A stretch of 55,019 bases of DNA from positions 1 to 55,019 of IMG/VR virus record IMGVR_UViG_3300046323_000133. One strand, 5' to 3'. The notes under the pieces were generated by a model that made no database searches, was not told where the DNA came from, and saw only the letters and a list, made by a program, of their open reading frames with translations. Every line of letters begins with the position of its first letter. The stretch's first letter is position 1. The position numbers and the translations under genes are program-made. This document shows, in pieces, positions 1,378 to 15,041 of the stretch. This DNA is from a virus.

Positions 1378-1815
1378 CTACTTAACTGTGTTCATTAATA
1401 TGTATGGATGGTATATTAGGTTAAACTTTTCATCGTTTCTGTCACCTATAACAGTTTGATGGGTGTAGCATCCTAAAACTCCGAAATCATGGTTAGTTTC
1501 TTCTAACATACGTCTAGCTAATCCTAATTTACGGTATATATTTTTTACATATATGTAATGTAGAACAAACTGTCCTTGTATACGTTCAAAGACGCAGTAT
1601 CCATATATTATTCTAGGGTCTTCTGAGTTACAGCAGATTATAACGGTACTTGTCTTTAGTAATCTTTCAATGACATCGTGTTGATTAGTATAATAAATAC
1701 TATTATCTACATTGTTACATAGAGTTCCTGCTCTAAAAGATTTTAACCAGCTGCTGAATAAGAAAGCTGTATCTTCTTCTAAAAATGGTCGCATAATAAT
1801 AGGCAAACTAGTCAT
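1378..1815 (-). CDS. GNAT-family acetyltransferase-like protein
   Basis: The start is set at 1815: GGAG lies 7 bases upstream and the ATG overlaps the end of the preceding gene. The frame also continues 10 codons further upstream. The 145-residue protein has the GNAT acetyl-CoA segment (VLHYIYVKNIYRKLGLARRML, R/K-x-x-G-x-A type) at about residues 90-110. Small GNAT proteins are common near the packaging genes of short-tailed phages; their substrate is usually unknown. A second GNAT lies at 41160-41507. Confidence 0.7.
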   Translation of the reverse strand: MTSLPIIMRPFLEEDTAFLFSSWLKSFRAGTLCNNVDNSIYYTNQHDVIERLLKTSTVIICCNSEDPRIIYGYCVFERIQGQFVLHYIYVKNIYRKLGLARRMLEETNHDFGVLGCYTHQTVIGDRNDEKFNLIYHPYILMNTVK

Positions 1816-2065
1816 TTGAAATCTCCATTTCTTCTTCGTCCTCATCCCATTTTAGAGATACGCTAACTCTTAATGCACTTCCTAAGTATTGTAAGGCATC
1901 GTGTTCGGAAATTCCACAAGAGATAGCTAAATTCTCATAAGGGATATCTACTTTAAATTGATAATTAGTCTTTTTTAATGTTGCCATGGTTATGGCGTAT
2001 TGAAGCATATTTAATGCTGAATATTCAGATACTTCGGCTGTTGAAGGCCTTATTATTTCACTCAT
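1808..2065 (-). CDS. Small acidic protein of unknown function
   Basis: This 85-residue protein is mostly helical, with a very acidic C-terminus (KWDEDEEEMEISND). Its last codons overlap the start of the GNAT gene. A segment reading AISCGISEHDALQYLGSAL could be a short helix-turn-helix, but it is too weak to call. It sits in a run of tightly packed minus-strand genes and is not recognised. Confidence 0.7.
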   Translation of the reverse strand: MSEIIRPSTAEVSEYSALNMLQYAITMATLKKTNYQFKVDIPYENLAISCGISEHDALQYLGSALRVSVSLKWDEDEEEMEISND

Positions 2066-2811: not shown

Positions 2812-3049
2812 TGGATACCTCCGTTATAAGGTTATTTGATAGCTTTAACACTGCTTTTTTGCCCATAACCACTGACATAACAGGAAATACATACATAATT
2901 ACGGCTTTTGGCATTAACTGTATGGCATTTTCATAATATACACTGCTATTTCGCACTATTTCAGGGTTATAGTAAGCATATGTGTTCAAAGTGCTAGTAC
3001 ATCCTGTGTTATTTATACATGCAAAGGCTAAAACGACCTCTTGAATCAT
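2774..3049 (-). CDS. Hypothetical protein with hydrophobic segments
   Basis: The 91-residue protein has hydrophobic stretches (VVLAFACINN; KAVIMYVFPVMSVVM) and two N-terminal Cys. It overlaps the preceding gene by 4 bases and the following gene by 38 bases. It could be membrane-associated. Not recognised. Confidence 0.6.
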   Translation of the reverse strand: MIQEVVLAFACINNTGCTSTLNTYAYYNPEIVRNSSVYYENAIQLMPKAVIMYVFPVMSVVMGKKAVLKLSNNLITEVSSENVTVKFTIQY

Positions 3050-3258
3050 ACAGGCTCTCTTATTCCGCAGATTTTACACGTTCTATCACTCTGCAGCAGT
3101 CCTAGATACGTTTCCCAGTCATGATAACATTGATGTTTGTGAATATTTGTAGGTATAATCTCGGGTACCTCTACTAAAGACTGGTATTTTATGATATTTC
3201 CATACTTATCTAAGCCTTCAACCCATTTTATAGCAAATAAACCTTTAATTTCTTTCAT
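3046..3258 (-). CDS. Small putative zinc-binding protein
   Basis: The 70-residue protein ends with HKHQCYHDWE and then CKICG, a Cys/His arrangement that could hold one zinc ion, as in small treble-clef or ribbon proteins. It is the first gene after a 68-bp gap that contains the recurrent GGACCGGCATAAAA motif (3277-3290, co-oriented, 19 bases before the ATG), so it may begin a transcription unit. Function unknown. Confidence 0.7.
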   Translation of the reverse strand: MKEIKGLFAIKWVEGLDKYGNIIKYQSLVEVPEIIPTNIHKHQCYHDWETYLGLLQSDRTCKICGIREPV

Positions 3259-3276
3259 GTTTAACTGTGTTGCAGA

Positions 3277-3290
3277 TTTTATGCCGGTCC
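3277..3290 (-). promoter_or_regulatory. GGACCGGCATAAAA motif upstream of 3258
   Basis: An exact copy of the recurrent GGACCGGYATAAAA motif lies on the minus strand 18 bases before the start codon of the next gene. Other copies or close variants are at 13780, 14074, 14397, 15545 and 22591, always read in the direction of local transcription. The role (promoter part, leader or protein site) is inferred. Confidence 0.6.
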
Positions 3291-6024: not shown

Positions 6025-6178
6025 GAAATCTCCTTTGTTAGTTTAGTTTGTATACAGGTTATAGCACATTGAGTGCCAAATCTAAGTAAGTTATATGTCT
6101 TTTGAGCATGTAAATATGACCATAAATTGCACATTTGTATCGGTTTATATATACAGTGTGACTTTTAAACAACACTGC
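6025..6178 (-). other. Leader region of the lipoprotein gene
   Basis: This gap contains the ribosome-binding site (AGGAG) for the lipoprotein and a sigma70-like promoter candidate at 6144-6172. No further gene is visible. Confidence 0.5.
6144..6172 (-). promoter_or_regulatory. Candidate sigma70-type promoter for the lipoprotein gene
   Basis: On the minus strand TTGTTT, a 17-base spacer and TATAAA are seen, about 120 bases before the lipoprotein ATG. The -35 element is only a partial match, so this is a moderate candidate. Confidence 0.4.
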
Positions 6179-8840: not shown

Positions 8841-8861
8841 CTCCTTGGTTAAAGGTACATA
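8841..8861 (-). repeat. 21-bp leader repeat, minus-arm copy
   Basis: On the minus strand this contains ATGTACCTTTAACCAAGGAG plus one more matching base, identical to 10621-10641 on the plus strand. It ends in the AAGGAG ribosome-binding site of the acidic gene at 8835. Confidence 0.9.
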
Positions 8862-8903
8862 AAGAAGGACTCAGACCTTGAGTCTTTTATTCATCCATGT
8901 TTA

Positions 8904-9059
8904 TTAGTAGGCTAGCAGTAAAAATATTATTAGAATAATTATCATTGTCATGTTATATTTGTTATATTGCATAGTTTGTGCCTGGGTTTTAGAGGCTATA
9001 AAGGACTTGAAGTACAGTAAGCGTTTAAGCTTTAAACACCTGTTAGCGTAAAATGTCAC
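8904..9059 (-). CDS. Possible small membrane protein (weak)
   Basis: A frame of up to 51 codons from a GTG at 9059 ends in a hydrophobic helix (MTMIIILIIFLLLAY). No good ribosome-binding site precedes any start; an internal ATG at 8972 would give 22 residues. It may be a real small membrane protein or chance. Confidence 0.25.
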   Translation of the reverse strand: MTFYANRCLKLKRLLYFKSFIASKTQAQTMQYNKYNMTMIIILIIFLLLAY

Positions 9060-9272
9060 TTTTAGTTCTTAAAAAGCTACGTATTGTGTTGAGACGCTTA
9101 AGGTCTTGGCCTGTACTTTGCATAATTAAATGGTGTGCCAGGTTTAAAAGACTAAACGTACCACAATGTAGTACAATCGTACCAAAGTTGTGAACGTAAG
9201 CGTACGCGACAGCGTGCAAGAAGTGTGCCTATTTACTAGCAGGTCTTTAAAGCTTGCAAGTTTAATGCCAGT

Positions 9273-9974
9273 CTAATACTTCGCTTCTTTGTGTTTTAAA
9301 TTAACTGATAGTCCTAGGGGGCCTAACACGCTATTATAATACTCATGAGTACCTTTACAGTCTAAGCCTAGTAGGCCAAAGATTTCTAAGTCTTTAGGGC
9401 GTAGTTCGCCTTGAGGGCTTGTAACGTGCCAAAGCCAGCAGTGGTTTAGGATGCGTCTAATCTTGTTGTACGCCCAGTAATGGGACTTATAGAGCTGTAA
9501 CGGCTTAAAAGCGTTAGGTATTTCTACATTAGGATACAGTTTACAGAAGGCGGCTAAATCTCCAGTGTTCGCAAGGGCTGATATATCTCTGTATTCTGCT
9601 TGTTCTATGTAGCAGTTTAATAAAAATAAACAGTTAGTGTACGACTTACCGTACTTGTGCCTAGCTGCTCTTGAATTCATGTAGTAATTTATATAGGTTT
9701 GAACGTAACTGATAGCCTCTGAAGGGTCGTGCTGGTACTCAAAGGACTTAAAGTTCTTAGTGCCACGTAAAAAAGGCGAAGAAAGTCCAGGCAGACAGTC
9801 CGAAAAGGACTCAATGTCAGCATGTCCCGATTTTTGCAATTTAAGTTGCCACTCACGAAATATCTTATTAACTTGCTCAAGTGTGTATCCAGGGGGTATG
9901 TAGTACCCAGCGCCTTCATAGTGCGTTCTAGCTCCTGAAACGGTCGAATTAGGTTGTTTTTGTCTTTTAGCCAT
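9273..9974 (-). CDS. Unknown protein from a probable leaderless mRNA
   Basis: The 233-residue protein starts at 9974. It has a basic N-terminus (MAKRQKQPNSTVSGART), a Pro/Gly/Tyr stretch (GYYIPPGYT), and a central helical part rich in Tyr (YVQTYINYYMNSRAARHKYGKS). No family is recognised. A near-consensus sigma70 promoter (9981-10009) ends only 6 bases before the ATG and there is no ribosome-binding site, so the mRNA probably starts at or next to the ATG. Leaderless starts are typical of some phage repressors, and the place beside the divergent control region suggests a regulator or replication initiator. That role is inference. Confidence 0.75.
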   Translation of the reverse strand: MAKRQKQPNSTVSGARTHYEGAGYYIPPGYTLEQVNKIFREWQLKLQKSGHADIESFSDCLPGLSSPFLRGTKNFKSFEYQHDPSEAISYVQTYINYYMNSRAARHKYGKSYTNCLFLLNCYIEQAEYRDISALANTGDLAAFCKLYPNVEIPNAFKPLQLYKSHYWAYNKIRRILNHCWLWHVTSPQGELRPKDLEIFGLLGLDCKGTHEYYNSVLGPLGLSVNLKHKEAKY

Positions 9975-9980
9975 GTAGTA

Positions 9981-10009
9981 AGCATAGCAGCTGTATATTT
10001 GATAGTCAA
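9981..10009 (-). promoter_or_regulatory. Sigma70-type promoter for the 9974 gene
   Basis: On the minus strand TTGACT, a 17-base spacer and TATGCT are seen. The expected start of transcription falls at or within a base or two of the ATG at 9974. Confidence 0.75.
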
Positions 10010-10012
10010 GTG

Positions 10013-10192
10013 TTAATTAAATAGTTCTGCTCTATCTATTAATAATCTAGCTAAATCTTGGTTGATTTGAACTACTTTCTGGTTTAATTTAGTATATAGT
10101 CTATTATGAACTATATACACTTTTAGTCCATATCTATTATAGATAAGTCCTTTATCATATTTTTTAAACTTATAGCTGTAATTAAATAACAT
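10013..10192 (-). CDS. Small basic protein
   Basis: The 59-residue protein starts with an ATG that overlaps the stop of the upstream gene (TAATG). It is basic and rich in Tyr and Asn (LFNYSYKFKKYDKGLIYNRYG) with a helical end. It falls below usual length cut-offs. Codon use and coupling support it. Function unknown. Confidence 0.55.
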   Translation of the reverse strand: MLFNYSYKFKKYDKGLIYNRYGLKVYIVHNRLYTKLNQKVVQINQDLARLLIDRAELFN

Positions 10193-10356
10193 TATGCAGC
10201 CTTTATATTATTTAATTGAGCTGTTAATAACTCTATAATCAAATCTTTAATATTAGCTCTTTGGTTTAGTAGTTCTAGTCTTTCAACATTGTTATCACAT
10301 TTCAACAGTAACTGGGCATTTATACTTAACTCTCTTTGTAAGATAACTATGCACAT
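10192..10356 (-). CDS. Small helical protein, first gene of the minus arm
   Basis: The 54-residue protein has AAGGAG six bases before its ATG at 10356. It is helical with leucine-rich stretches (ERLELLNQRANIKDLIIELL) and may dimerise. As the gene closest to the divergent region on the minus side it may be expressed early. Unrecognised. Confidence 0.6.
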   Translation of the reverse strand: MCIVILQRELSINAQLLLKCDNNVERLELLNQRANIKDLIIELLTAQLNNIKAA

Positions 10357-10646
10357 GCTAACTCCTTTATAAGCTATACATTAACTGAGTGGTTATCTAG
10401 TCTGGAAAGAAAAGTATCGACTCAATTGTTGTATATTATATATATATAGCTGCAATAGCTTTGCCAGGTTATGAGCAGTATATGCCATTTAACAGCTTAA
10501 ACCAGTAAACAGTAACAATTTACGGCACACAGCGGTTAAAGCTTATACATGTAAGGACTGTCTAAAGGTCTAGGTTGCTGATGAAGTAGGTATGTAGTGT
10601 GCAATAGTATTAATAGAGACTATGTACCTTTAACCAAGGAGTTCAC
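10357..10646. other. Divergent intergenic region between the two arms
   Basis: About 290 bases separate the first minus-arm gene from the first plus-arm gene. It holds an alternating AT run (10436-10448, TATATATATA), a TTAAAGCTTA element (10536-10545) and the 21-bp leader repeat at its right end. I could not find a clean sigma70 promoter for either arm here; a regulated or non-canonical promoter is likely. Confidence 0.6.
10621..10641 (+). repeat. 21-bp leader repeat, plus-arm copy
   Basis: Identical to the minus-strand sequence at 8841-8861; it ends with AAGGAG, the ribosome-binding site of the transglycosylase gene at 10647. Confidence 0.9.
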
Positions 10647-11195
10647 ATGAAAAGACTTATATTAGCTGCTTTTACAATATGGATATTAATAGTTATTATA
10701 GTATTAGACAAGGTTAACGAGACTTCTAAACTTGGGCCTATTAAAGACTATGTAGAAACTGTCAATGGAGACGGAACTGGTTCTATAGAATTTATAGATA
10801 AGGTAGCTCCAAAGTACAAGCTATTAAACAGATATATAGATGAGGCGGCTATAAAGCATAATGTAGACCCTAGCTTGCTTAACTGTATATTCCATGTAGA
10901 ATCTACGCATACTTTAGATGCTGTAAGTAAAACTGGAGACTATGGTATTGGTCAAATAAATATACGCTCTTGGAAGAAGTTTAGTCCAGATAGGCTATTA
11001 ACAGACCTCCAGTACTCCATAAACGCTTCAGCAGAGGTTCTAAGTTTCTATAAACAATTAGCAGCACAAGACGAGCCAACAACATGGCCTTGTCGCTATA
11101 ACGTTGGAGGCGCTTCATTAACTAAAGGAACTGTTGGGGCGCGCTGCGTCCATTACATGTCCAAATTGAACAGTTGTTTGCAATCTAAAAACTAA
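10647..11195 (+). CDS. Lytic transglycosylase (SLT) with N-terminal membrane anchor
   Basis: The 182-residue protein starts with a hydrophobic segment (LILAAFTIWILIVIIVLD, residues 4-21) that may be a membrane anchor or a signal-anchor-release signal. The SLT domain follows: HNVDPSLLNCIFHVESTH with catalytic Glu85, then GDYGIGQINI (98-106) and a C-terminal helix bundle containing YNVGG. It cleaves peptidoglycan glycan strands. As first gene of the early arm it is odd for a late endolysin; it may help DNA entry or be delayed by membrane anchoring. AAGGAG lies 5 bases before the ATG, inside the shared leader repeat. Confidence 0.9.
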   Translation: MKRLILAAFTIWILIVIIVLDKVNETSKLGPIKDYVETVNGDGTGSIEFIDKVAPKYKLLNRYIDEAAIKHNVDPSLLNCIFHVESTHTLDAVSKTGDYGIGQINIRSWKKFSPDRLLTDLQYSINASAEVLSFYKQLAAQDEPTTWPCRYNVGGASLTKGTVGARCVHYMSKLNSCLQSKN

Positions 11196-11859
11196 TTGTG
11201 CCGGACCTACTGGCGCAGTGTGCCACTTTAAAAAACGAAGTGGCGCACCACTATCCTTAATGATATCATATACTTGGAAGCCCGTGCGCCAGTGTGCCAC
11301 TAAAAAGACACTTCAGACGCCATTTTCGTATATGGCTATGTGCCCAAATCTACCACAATAGAACTGACACTCAGCTCGCATATACTCGTTTTAAGAAAAA
11401 ATATTTTCCGGATTGTCAAAACACTGGCACACTGGCACACTTTGATTATAACTGTTATATAATATATAAAAGAGAATATAGAAGACTTAATAGTACTAAA
11501 AGTCCTAAATACCTAATATTGTTAACTAAATACCAAATTACTAAAAGTGGCGCAATAGTGGCGCACGGACTGGCACACTGGCACACGGAAGGGCTTAAAG
11601 TGCGCCAGCGACTCCAAATAGTGTGCCGGTCCATTAGTTTAGTGCGACAATAAAATAGTGACGTTTTAGGCTGACACTCGACTACTTCTTAAACAGTTTA
11701 CCCGACCCAAATAGAGTATAAATGAACTAAACTGGCCTGCAAAGTGCATCAAGTCTTATACTTACTTAAACACTGCATAAACTTTACTTATGTTAAGTAT
11801 TAAAGAAGCTTAATCGGGTCTACAAAGATTAACCGATTTACAAACTAAAAAGGACTAAC
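11196..11859. other. Non-coding region; candidate replication origin
   Basis: About 660 bases without a convincing gene. At least eleven copies of the heptamer TGGCRCA (or its complement) occur between 11211 and 11607, in two GC-rich groups flanking an AT-rich core (about 11441-11540). This is the classic build of an iteron origin: protein-binding repeats next to an unwinding element. From 11640 to 11859 only AT-rich leader sequence is seen. Confidence 0.65.
11211..11607. repeat. Iteron cluster, heptamer TGGCRCA
   Basis: Forward copies start at 11211, 11241, 11425, 11433, 11548, 11559, 11571 and 11579; reverse copies (TGYGCCA) start at 11219, 11285, 11293 and 11601. Three pairs are spaced 8 bases apart (11285/11293, 11425/11433, 11571/11579) and 11211/11219 form an inverted pair. 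An 11-bp stem with one mismatch can form from 11218 to 11248. Near-copies (TGTGCCG) lie at 11197 and 11622. Confidence 0.85.
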
Positions 11860-14396: not shown

Positions 14397-14410
14397 GACC
14401 GGCATAAAGT
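14397..14410 (+). promoter_or_regulatory. AGACCGGCATAAAG motif
   Basis: A two-mismatch copy of the recurrent motif lies between the terminator and the start of 14439; it also shares TCTGCAA after it with the copy at 3277. Because a terminator precedes it, a promoter is needed here, which favours a promoter role for the motif. Confidence 0.55.
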
Positions 14411-14438
14411 CTGCAATAATTTAAAATATGGAGGACAT

Positions 14439-15041
14439 ATGATTATAAATGCCACTTTAATAAGTTCACTAAATGCTTGTTCAGACCGATATGATAATTA
14501 CGTATTACATTATGGTACAACAGACTATGACGTCGATACTTTTTTAGACTTAGACAATATTACTTATCAAGATAAAATATGGGTGTTAAGACGCATTATG
14601 AACGCCACACAAGCTAGAATTTTTGCAATTCTATGTGCGGATAGCGTTTTGCCTATTTTTGAATCTAAGTATCCTAATGATTACAGAGTAAGAAACTGTC
14701 TTAACTTCTTAAAATCTATAAAAGATTTAGGAAACTTAACAGAAGAAGAAAAGACTGAGCTAAAATTTCAAAGAAAAGCTGCTGCTGCTACTTACTCTGC
14801 TGATGCTGCTACTTACTCTGCTGCTGCTGCTTATGCTGATGCTGCTACTTACTCTGCTGCTGCTGCTGCTACTTACTCTGCTGCTGATGCTGCTACTTAC
14901 TCTGCTGCTGCTGCTGCTACTTACTCTGCTGCTGCTGCTGCTACTTACTCTGCTGCTGCTGCTTATGCTGCTTATGCTGATGCTAAAATACAGCAACAAA
15001 ATTTAAACTTAGAATACTTAAAACAAGCAATGAGTATTTAA
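14439..15041 (+). CDS. Protein with Ala/Thr/Tyr/Ser tandem repeats
   Basis: The 200-residue protein has GGAGG before its ATG. Residues 1-113 form a helical domain. Residues 114-182 are a repetitive run of units such as AAATYSA and AAAYADA, encoded by GCT-rich tandem repeats (14778-14984). The last residues are helical. A similar host or phage family with A-x-A-Y repeats is known to me only vaguely. It stands immediately before the primase (its stop overlaps that ATG by design: TAAATG). Confidence 0.75.
   Translation: MIINATLISSLNACSDRYDNYVLHYGTTDYDVDTFLDLDNITYQDKIWVLRRIMNATQARIFAILCADSVLPIFESKYPNDYRVRNCLNFLKSIKDLGNLTEEEKTELKFQRKAAAATYSADAATYSAAAAYADAATYSAAAAATYSAADAATYSAAAAATYSAAAAATYSAAAAYAAYADAKIQQQNLNLEYLKQAMSI
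14778..14984 (+). repeat. GCT-rich coding tandem repeat
   Basis: About 207 bases are built from variants of a 21-base unit (four GCT codons, then ACTTACTCT) with GAT and TAT codon substitutions and unit-length changes. It is in frame throughout and is likely to vary in copy number by slippage. Confidence 0.85.

Follow-up and report, generated by a model that had tools for sequence, protein, structure and literature searches.

Locus and Gene Content

The window, by which we mean the whole 55,019-base virus record analyzed here, has the same stretch of about 130 bases at both ends and is therefore circularly permuted or complete. It encodes terminase, portal, head and tail genes as well as DNA polymerase, primase-like and exonuclease genes, and a tRNA search across it found none. 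The record represents an uncultivated, podovirus-like and probably virulent phage. No integrase was found in the window, and a search of four relatives (G000, G001, G003 and G008) gave none, with its control matching in 14 of 14 genomes.

The gene under study is a real open reading frame of 233 codons, read from the minus strand, which the sequence-only reading of this DNA had left unnamed. Its ATG is the only plausible start, since the in-frame open stretch upstream contains no other ATG, GTG or TTG. A sister phage, G001, encodes an ortholog at a locus designated L002 that is 69% identical over its full length. Differences between the two genes number 72, 38 and 124 at first, second and third codon positions, respectively, and because they fall mainly on third positions, the frame appears to be under selection as protein.

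On its 3' side the gene adjoins a non-coding region of about 400 bp (8862-9272). Directly upstream on the same strand are two small ORFs, one of 59 codons, with a homolog at 5721-5906 of L002, and one of 54 codons that has its own ribosome-binding site (AAAGGAG) and a similar ORF at 5357-5515 of L002. To judge from this arrangement, both may be cotranscribed with the 233-codon gene as part of a longer transcript. A divergent promoter region (approximately 10357-10646) follows, then a plus-strand lytic transglycosylase-like gene (10647-11195), and beyond that gene TGGCRCAC / GTGYGCCA repeats in a cluster that may serve as an origin or an operator array. The gene had been described as bordering the divergent regulatory region and the iterons; it does adjoin the non-coding region on its 3' side, but the two small conserved ORFs part it from the divergent promoters, and the repeats are more than 1.2 kb away. 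Table 1 lists the features of the locus.

An identical 21-bp element, TATGTACCTTTAACCAAGGAG, which includes a ribosome-binding site, stands before two divergent genes, at 8841-8861 (minus strand) and 10621-10641 (plus strand). The sister phage has TAACAAGGAGAC at the matching places, with sigma-54-like elements ahead. Elsewhere in the window, a tandem GCT-rich repeat of 24/48-base units occupies 14834-14984, within the gene at 14439-15041.

Table 1. Positions of features in the window and, where stated, in sister locus L002.
Feature	Position	Strand	Context or basis
233-aa protein gene	9273..9974 (ATG 9974, stop ending 9273)	minus	ORF, ortholog, codon-position differences, profile match
Sigma-70-type promoter TTGACT-17-TATGCT with extended -10 (TGC)	9981..10009	minus	6 nt before ATG; same gap and spacer in L002
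Family N-terminal motif, residues 38-55	9810..9863	minus	Alignment, profiles
Predicted helix-turn-helix, residues 113-185 (helices 113-123, 128-137, 165-185)	9420..9638	minus	AlphaFold, low to medium confidence, matched to family model; alignment
Conserved 59-aa ORF	10013..10192	minus	Directly upstream; homolog in L002
54-aa ORF with ribosome-binding site	10192..10356	minus	Similar ORF in L002
GNAT-like gene, the family's usual downstream neighbor	1378..1845	minus	About 7.4 kb downstream in the window
Sigma-54-like element TGGCA-N6-TTGCA (10/10)	9255..9270	minus	Directly past 3' end of 233-aa gene
Sigma-54-like element (9/10)	9215..9230	minus	
Sigma-54-like element (10/10)	10451..10466	minus	Upstream of the small-ORF operon leading into the 233-aa gene
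Further sigma-54-like elements	6063-6078, 3271-3286	minus	
Further sigma-54-like elements	14400-14415, 9107-9122	plus	
Sigma-54-like elements of L002	6744-7112 and 7458		
TGGCRCAC / GTGYGCCA repeat cluster	11197-11632	both orientations	After lytic transglycosylase-like gene

A Promoter in Leaderless Position

Read along the minus strand, the DNA ahead of the gene presents TTGACT, 17 nt that end in TGC (an extended -10), TATGCT, the six bases TACTAC, and then the ATG, as the sequence-only reading had it. Sigma-70 promoters of this shape begin transcription about 7 nt past the -10 hexamer, so the predicted transcription start is the A of the ATG itself. The earlier claim that no ribosome-binding site exists is borne out as well: the 17 nt before the ATG pair with the 3' end of 16S rRNA at a duplex energy of +0.5 kcal/mol, the weakest among 74 ORFs. 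The sister ortholog likewise starts without a ribosome-binding site (-0.9 kcal/mol), and its promoter, TTGACA-17-(TGC)CAGTAT-6 nt-ATG, has the same geometry; the gap between ORFs upstream of the ATG differs, being 38 vs 94 nt in the comparison of the window with L002.

A score for promoters in leaderless position, fixed after the window site was already known, reaches 11 for the 233-codon ORF only among the 74, two others scoring 10. Genome-wide, 3 of 1698 ATGs reach 11, as do 0.35% of shuffled versions of the 60 nt upstream of this ORF. The L002 ortholog also scores 11, at an identical gap and spacer, which its shuffled versions do in 0.012% of cases. Few sigma-70 sites in the non-coding DNA of the whole window are strong, and this is one of them. 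Promoter-like matches are common near the gene, however, with 22 in 3 kb vs 10.7 +- 3.1 in shuffles, and the sister's CAGTAT is a weak -10, matching at 3 of 6 positions. L002 further contains an overlapping alternative -10, TATACT, 3 nt from the ATG, that would start transcription inside the gene. The lack of a Shine-Dalgarno sequence, together with promoter geometry kept in the sister phage, makes leaderless expression likely, and at that grade the leaderless transcript proposed earlier gains support from sequence.

In G007, positions 730-756 of L189 hold TTGACA-17-TAATAT 6 nt before the ATG of a nine-codon ORF whose stop overlaps the start of a gene of the family described below; judged by its layout, this ORF is possibly a leaderless leader peptide coupled to that gene.

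A Family Found in Uncultivated Phages

Searches with the 233-residue protein gave no useful match in Pfam, PHROGs or the sequences of PDB, nor anything useful among cultured phages and bacterial genomes; used alone, the protein retrieved only its sister ortholog. A hit to PHROG 29618, labeled exonuclease (E 0.014), was rejected, as it is below significance and covers residues 111-176 only, which is the predicted helix-turn-helix region. Three weak bridging relatives (L092, L093 and L094) came from the records of phages whose head proteins are related, and an alignment of the three led to ten loci and from these to 97, of which 80 (L106-L185) were kept. The family so defined has at least 97 members on viral contigs.

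When a family profile was built without the members chosen by means of the query, the 233-codon ORF ranked first of 691 ORFs (E 2.7e-4) and the sister second, the next non-ortholog appearing at E 0.032. With the three bridging members in the profile, the protein scores 18.7 bits vs 7.8 for the best of 2000 shuffled copies. The match lies mainly in the first helices and an N-terminal motif, W..KL..sGf.DIE (here W..KL..SG..DIE), from which W42, K45, L46, G50, D53 and E55 are aligned in 16 of 16 sequences. These sequence comparisons place the protein, as a divergent member, in a large family that is undescribed and was found in uncultivated bacterial viruses only. The assertion that it has no recognizable family thus holds for Pfam, PHROGs and PDB and gives way to an uncurated phage family. 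No member was found in cultured phages, where a few matches at E 0.3 are attributable to chance, or in the bacterial genomes searched, for which the scans used short exact patterns and absence is only likely. The C-terminal segment of members matches several helix-turn-helix families weakly, through generic models and always below cut-off.

What the protein shares with L106-L185 is the motif, the predicted order of helices, and a position on the same strand upstream of a GNAT-like gene and terminase. It is larger by 100 residues: its N terminus is extended, its helix-turn-helix is interrupted by an insertion, and there is additional sequence in the C-terminal part. Its gene differs as well, having its own sigma-70 promoter and apparently no leader, whereas other members have overlapping starts or ordinary leaders.

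Predicted Structure

Structure prediction and fold search, as suggested by the sequence-only reading, fared differently for the protein and for its family. AlphaFold modeled the 233-residue protein poorly (pLDDT 59), placing helices at residues 32-49, 84-108, 113-123, 128-137 and 165-185, and Foldseek returned only meaningless matches for this model, with Z never above 2.8. A representative of the family, L106, was modeled at pLDDT 87.7 with six helices, the last three of which form a trihelical, C-terminal helix-turn-helix. The order of helices is the same in the two models. In the 233-residue protein the predicted helix-turn-helix part has pLDDT 56-84 and contains a long insertion between its second and third helices.

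Foldseek found no match to the family model at E <= 0.001, and the resemblance to sigma region 4 and LuxR domains comes from realignment to solved structures only. That realignment gave Z scores of 7.8 for YlxM/UPF0122, 7.6 for sigma-H and 6.6 for SigR region 4, in a range (below 8) that is common for small helical domains and can reflect a widespread arrangement. In the family model, the trihelical C-terminal fold resembles domains of the sigma region 4-like and LuxR types (YlxM/UPF0122, sigma-H, SigR region 4 and DesR; Z 6.6-7.8), but there is no significant sequence match to them, Pfam yielded no sigma-factor match for the 233-residue protein, and outside this domain the protein does not look like a sigma factor.

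Gene Order and the Late Operon

A gene encoding a GNAT-like (GNAT-fold) protein lies directly downstream of the family gene, on the same strand and usually overlapping it, in 78 of the 80 loci. In two of the loci, L172 (2459-3268) and L173 (2459-3268), helix-turn-helix and GNAT-like protein are one continuous ORF. Neighbors that are fused or usually overlapping point to a functional link between the two. Most loci place the family gene a few genes upstream of the large terminase, and in G003, G007 and G008 it is first after a strand switch, or near the start of a run, that continues through GNAT, terminase, portal and head genes. For G008 only the C-terminal part of the 404-aa ORF was used; the ORF is probably over-extended, its N-terminal part overlying an array of GG-N10-GC elements. 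The window keeps the same minus-strand order across the ends of the record; about a dozen inserted genes separate the family gene from the GNAT-like gene. Such synteny, in the closer relatives and in the window, is consistent with a regulator that heads the late operon.

Sigma-54-like Elements

GG-N10-GC is the geometry of sigma-54 promoters. Perfect sites with this spacing number 2, 4, 11 and 8 in the window, G001, G003 and G008, respectively, vs no more than one each for other spacings. Window sites scoring at least 8 are non-coding in 9 of 21 cases, vs 14 of 126 for the other spacings tested, in a window that is 9.6% non-coding. Beside the ortholog, L002 6703-7500 contains nine TGGCA-N6-TTGCA elements, vs 0.5 in shuffles. 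Two elements stand exactly as far from a start codon in the window as in the sister phage, at 39 nt ahead of 6024 and 13 nt ahead of 3258. The motif was not enriched across the wider family, nor among other phages related by head protein. The elements may be promoters for the host sigma-54, or else operators for a phage protein or iterons. Neither the sigma-54 activator domain (PF00158) nor sigma-54 (PF04552) was found in the four relatives, so the phages appear to bring no sigma-54 machinery of their own.

The small gene at 3046-3258 (minus strand), whose start is the one preceded at 13 nt, lacks a ribosome-binding site, as it does in the sister phage, and its GG-N10-GC element would also yield a nearly leaderless message.

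Proposed Function and Alternatives

The family to which the 233-residue protein belongs, the helix-turn-helix seen in that family, and gene order all support a role in transcription regulation. Our overall reading, which we regard as somewhat more probable than all others, is that a helix-turn-helix transcription regulator has a host sigma-70 promoter to itself, that its mRNA starts at the AUG or no more than a few bases away, and that it controls the late operon. Under this reading, host RNA polymerase with sigma-70 would read the gene, and the protein could be made on entry of phage DNA, with no need of a Shine-Dalgarno sequence. Its C-terminal trihelical domain would bind phage DNA and would probably touch the transcription machinery much as sigma region 4-like proteins do. 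The protein would then turn on, or time, a minus-strand late operon that runs from this gene through the GNAT-like gene to terminase and on to portal, head and tail. The ORF, the promoter-like sequence, the missing ribosome-binding site, the partial conservation of this layout in the sister phage, the family membership and the gene order are observed; that transcription truly begins without a leader, and that this protein binds DNA, at which target and with which sign, we infer.

The message of lambda cI, transcribed from PRM, is the standard example of a leaderless mRNA, and it too encodes a phage DNA-binding regulator read from a host sigma-70 promoter. That 70S ribosomes can start on leaderless messages is established in work cited within PMC8138138, where lambda cI serves as a leaderless reporter. 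The analogy to phage repressors drawn in the sequence-only reading is only partial: the proteins are unrelated, and the window's phage gives no sign of lysogeny. Together with the predicted helix-turn-helix, the cI precedent could suggest a CI-like lysogeny repressor, yet neither a repressor family nor a CI-like second domain was matched, and the lack of an integrase in four relatives and of any member in the bacterial genomes searched makes such a repressor the least probable of the readings considered. The same earlier text offered an initiator as a candidate beside a regulator. The sister phage has a repeat array adjoining the ortholog gene (L002 6744-7112), as might be expected of a replication initiator that binds iteron-like repeats, but the TGGCRCAC repeats of the window are remote from the gene, distant members occur in late regions without such repeats, no initiator family was matched, and in the closest relatives the gene opens the late operon. 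We consider an initiator only marginally less improbable than a lysogeny repressor; of the two proposals, regulator and initiator, the regulator is the one supported.

Nearness of most family genes to the large terminase raises the prospect of a protein for packaging or virion assembly, such as a second one of the small-terminase type, the more so as small terminases often have helix-turn-helix domains. Small terminases usually lie directly upstream of the large terminase, however, and in those loci that place is taken by a separate gene of about 110 codons; in addition, family members carry the helix-turn-helix at the C terminus, and the gene in the window, remote from terminase, is served by a sigma-70 promoter of its own. 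Such a function seems unlikely. A more substantial challenge, one to which we give a distinct minority share of belief, concerns expression: the transcript might come from upstream of the two small ORFs, with translation by reinitiation or some other Shine-Dalgarno-independent route and with the promoter-like site incidental. Both ORFs are conserved, on the same strand and directly upstream, a sigma-54-like site (10451) precedes them, and family members elsewhere, whose starts overlap the preceding gene, for that reason show no Shine-Dalgarno pairing either. Against such polycistronic expression stand the rarity of strong non-coding sigma-70 sites like this one in the window and the position of the promoter relative to the ATG, which is kept in the sister phage.

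A bolder extension of the regulator reading, and a doubtful one in our estimation, brings in the GG-N10-GC elements clustered around the gene: the protein, as the early switch of its phage lineage made from a leaderless host sigma-70 message, would recruit or replace the host sigma-54 machinery at these elements, and later genes would be expressed from sigma-54-type (-24/-12) promoters. Should the elements be promoters, a phage organized around the sigma-54 of its host would be out of the ordinary.

Leaderless expression is best known from lysogeny repressors, and its use for a regulator of a probably virulent phage would widen that range. Phages carrying the family yielded no RNA polymerase gene of their own; in the search for the single-subunit enzyme (PF00940), the control gave no match either. 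Within the searches made here, this regulator family, linked to the late operon in many uncultivated phages, has no entry in Pfam or PHROGs, and naming it would provide a handle on how these phages time their late genes.
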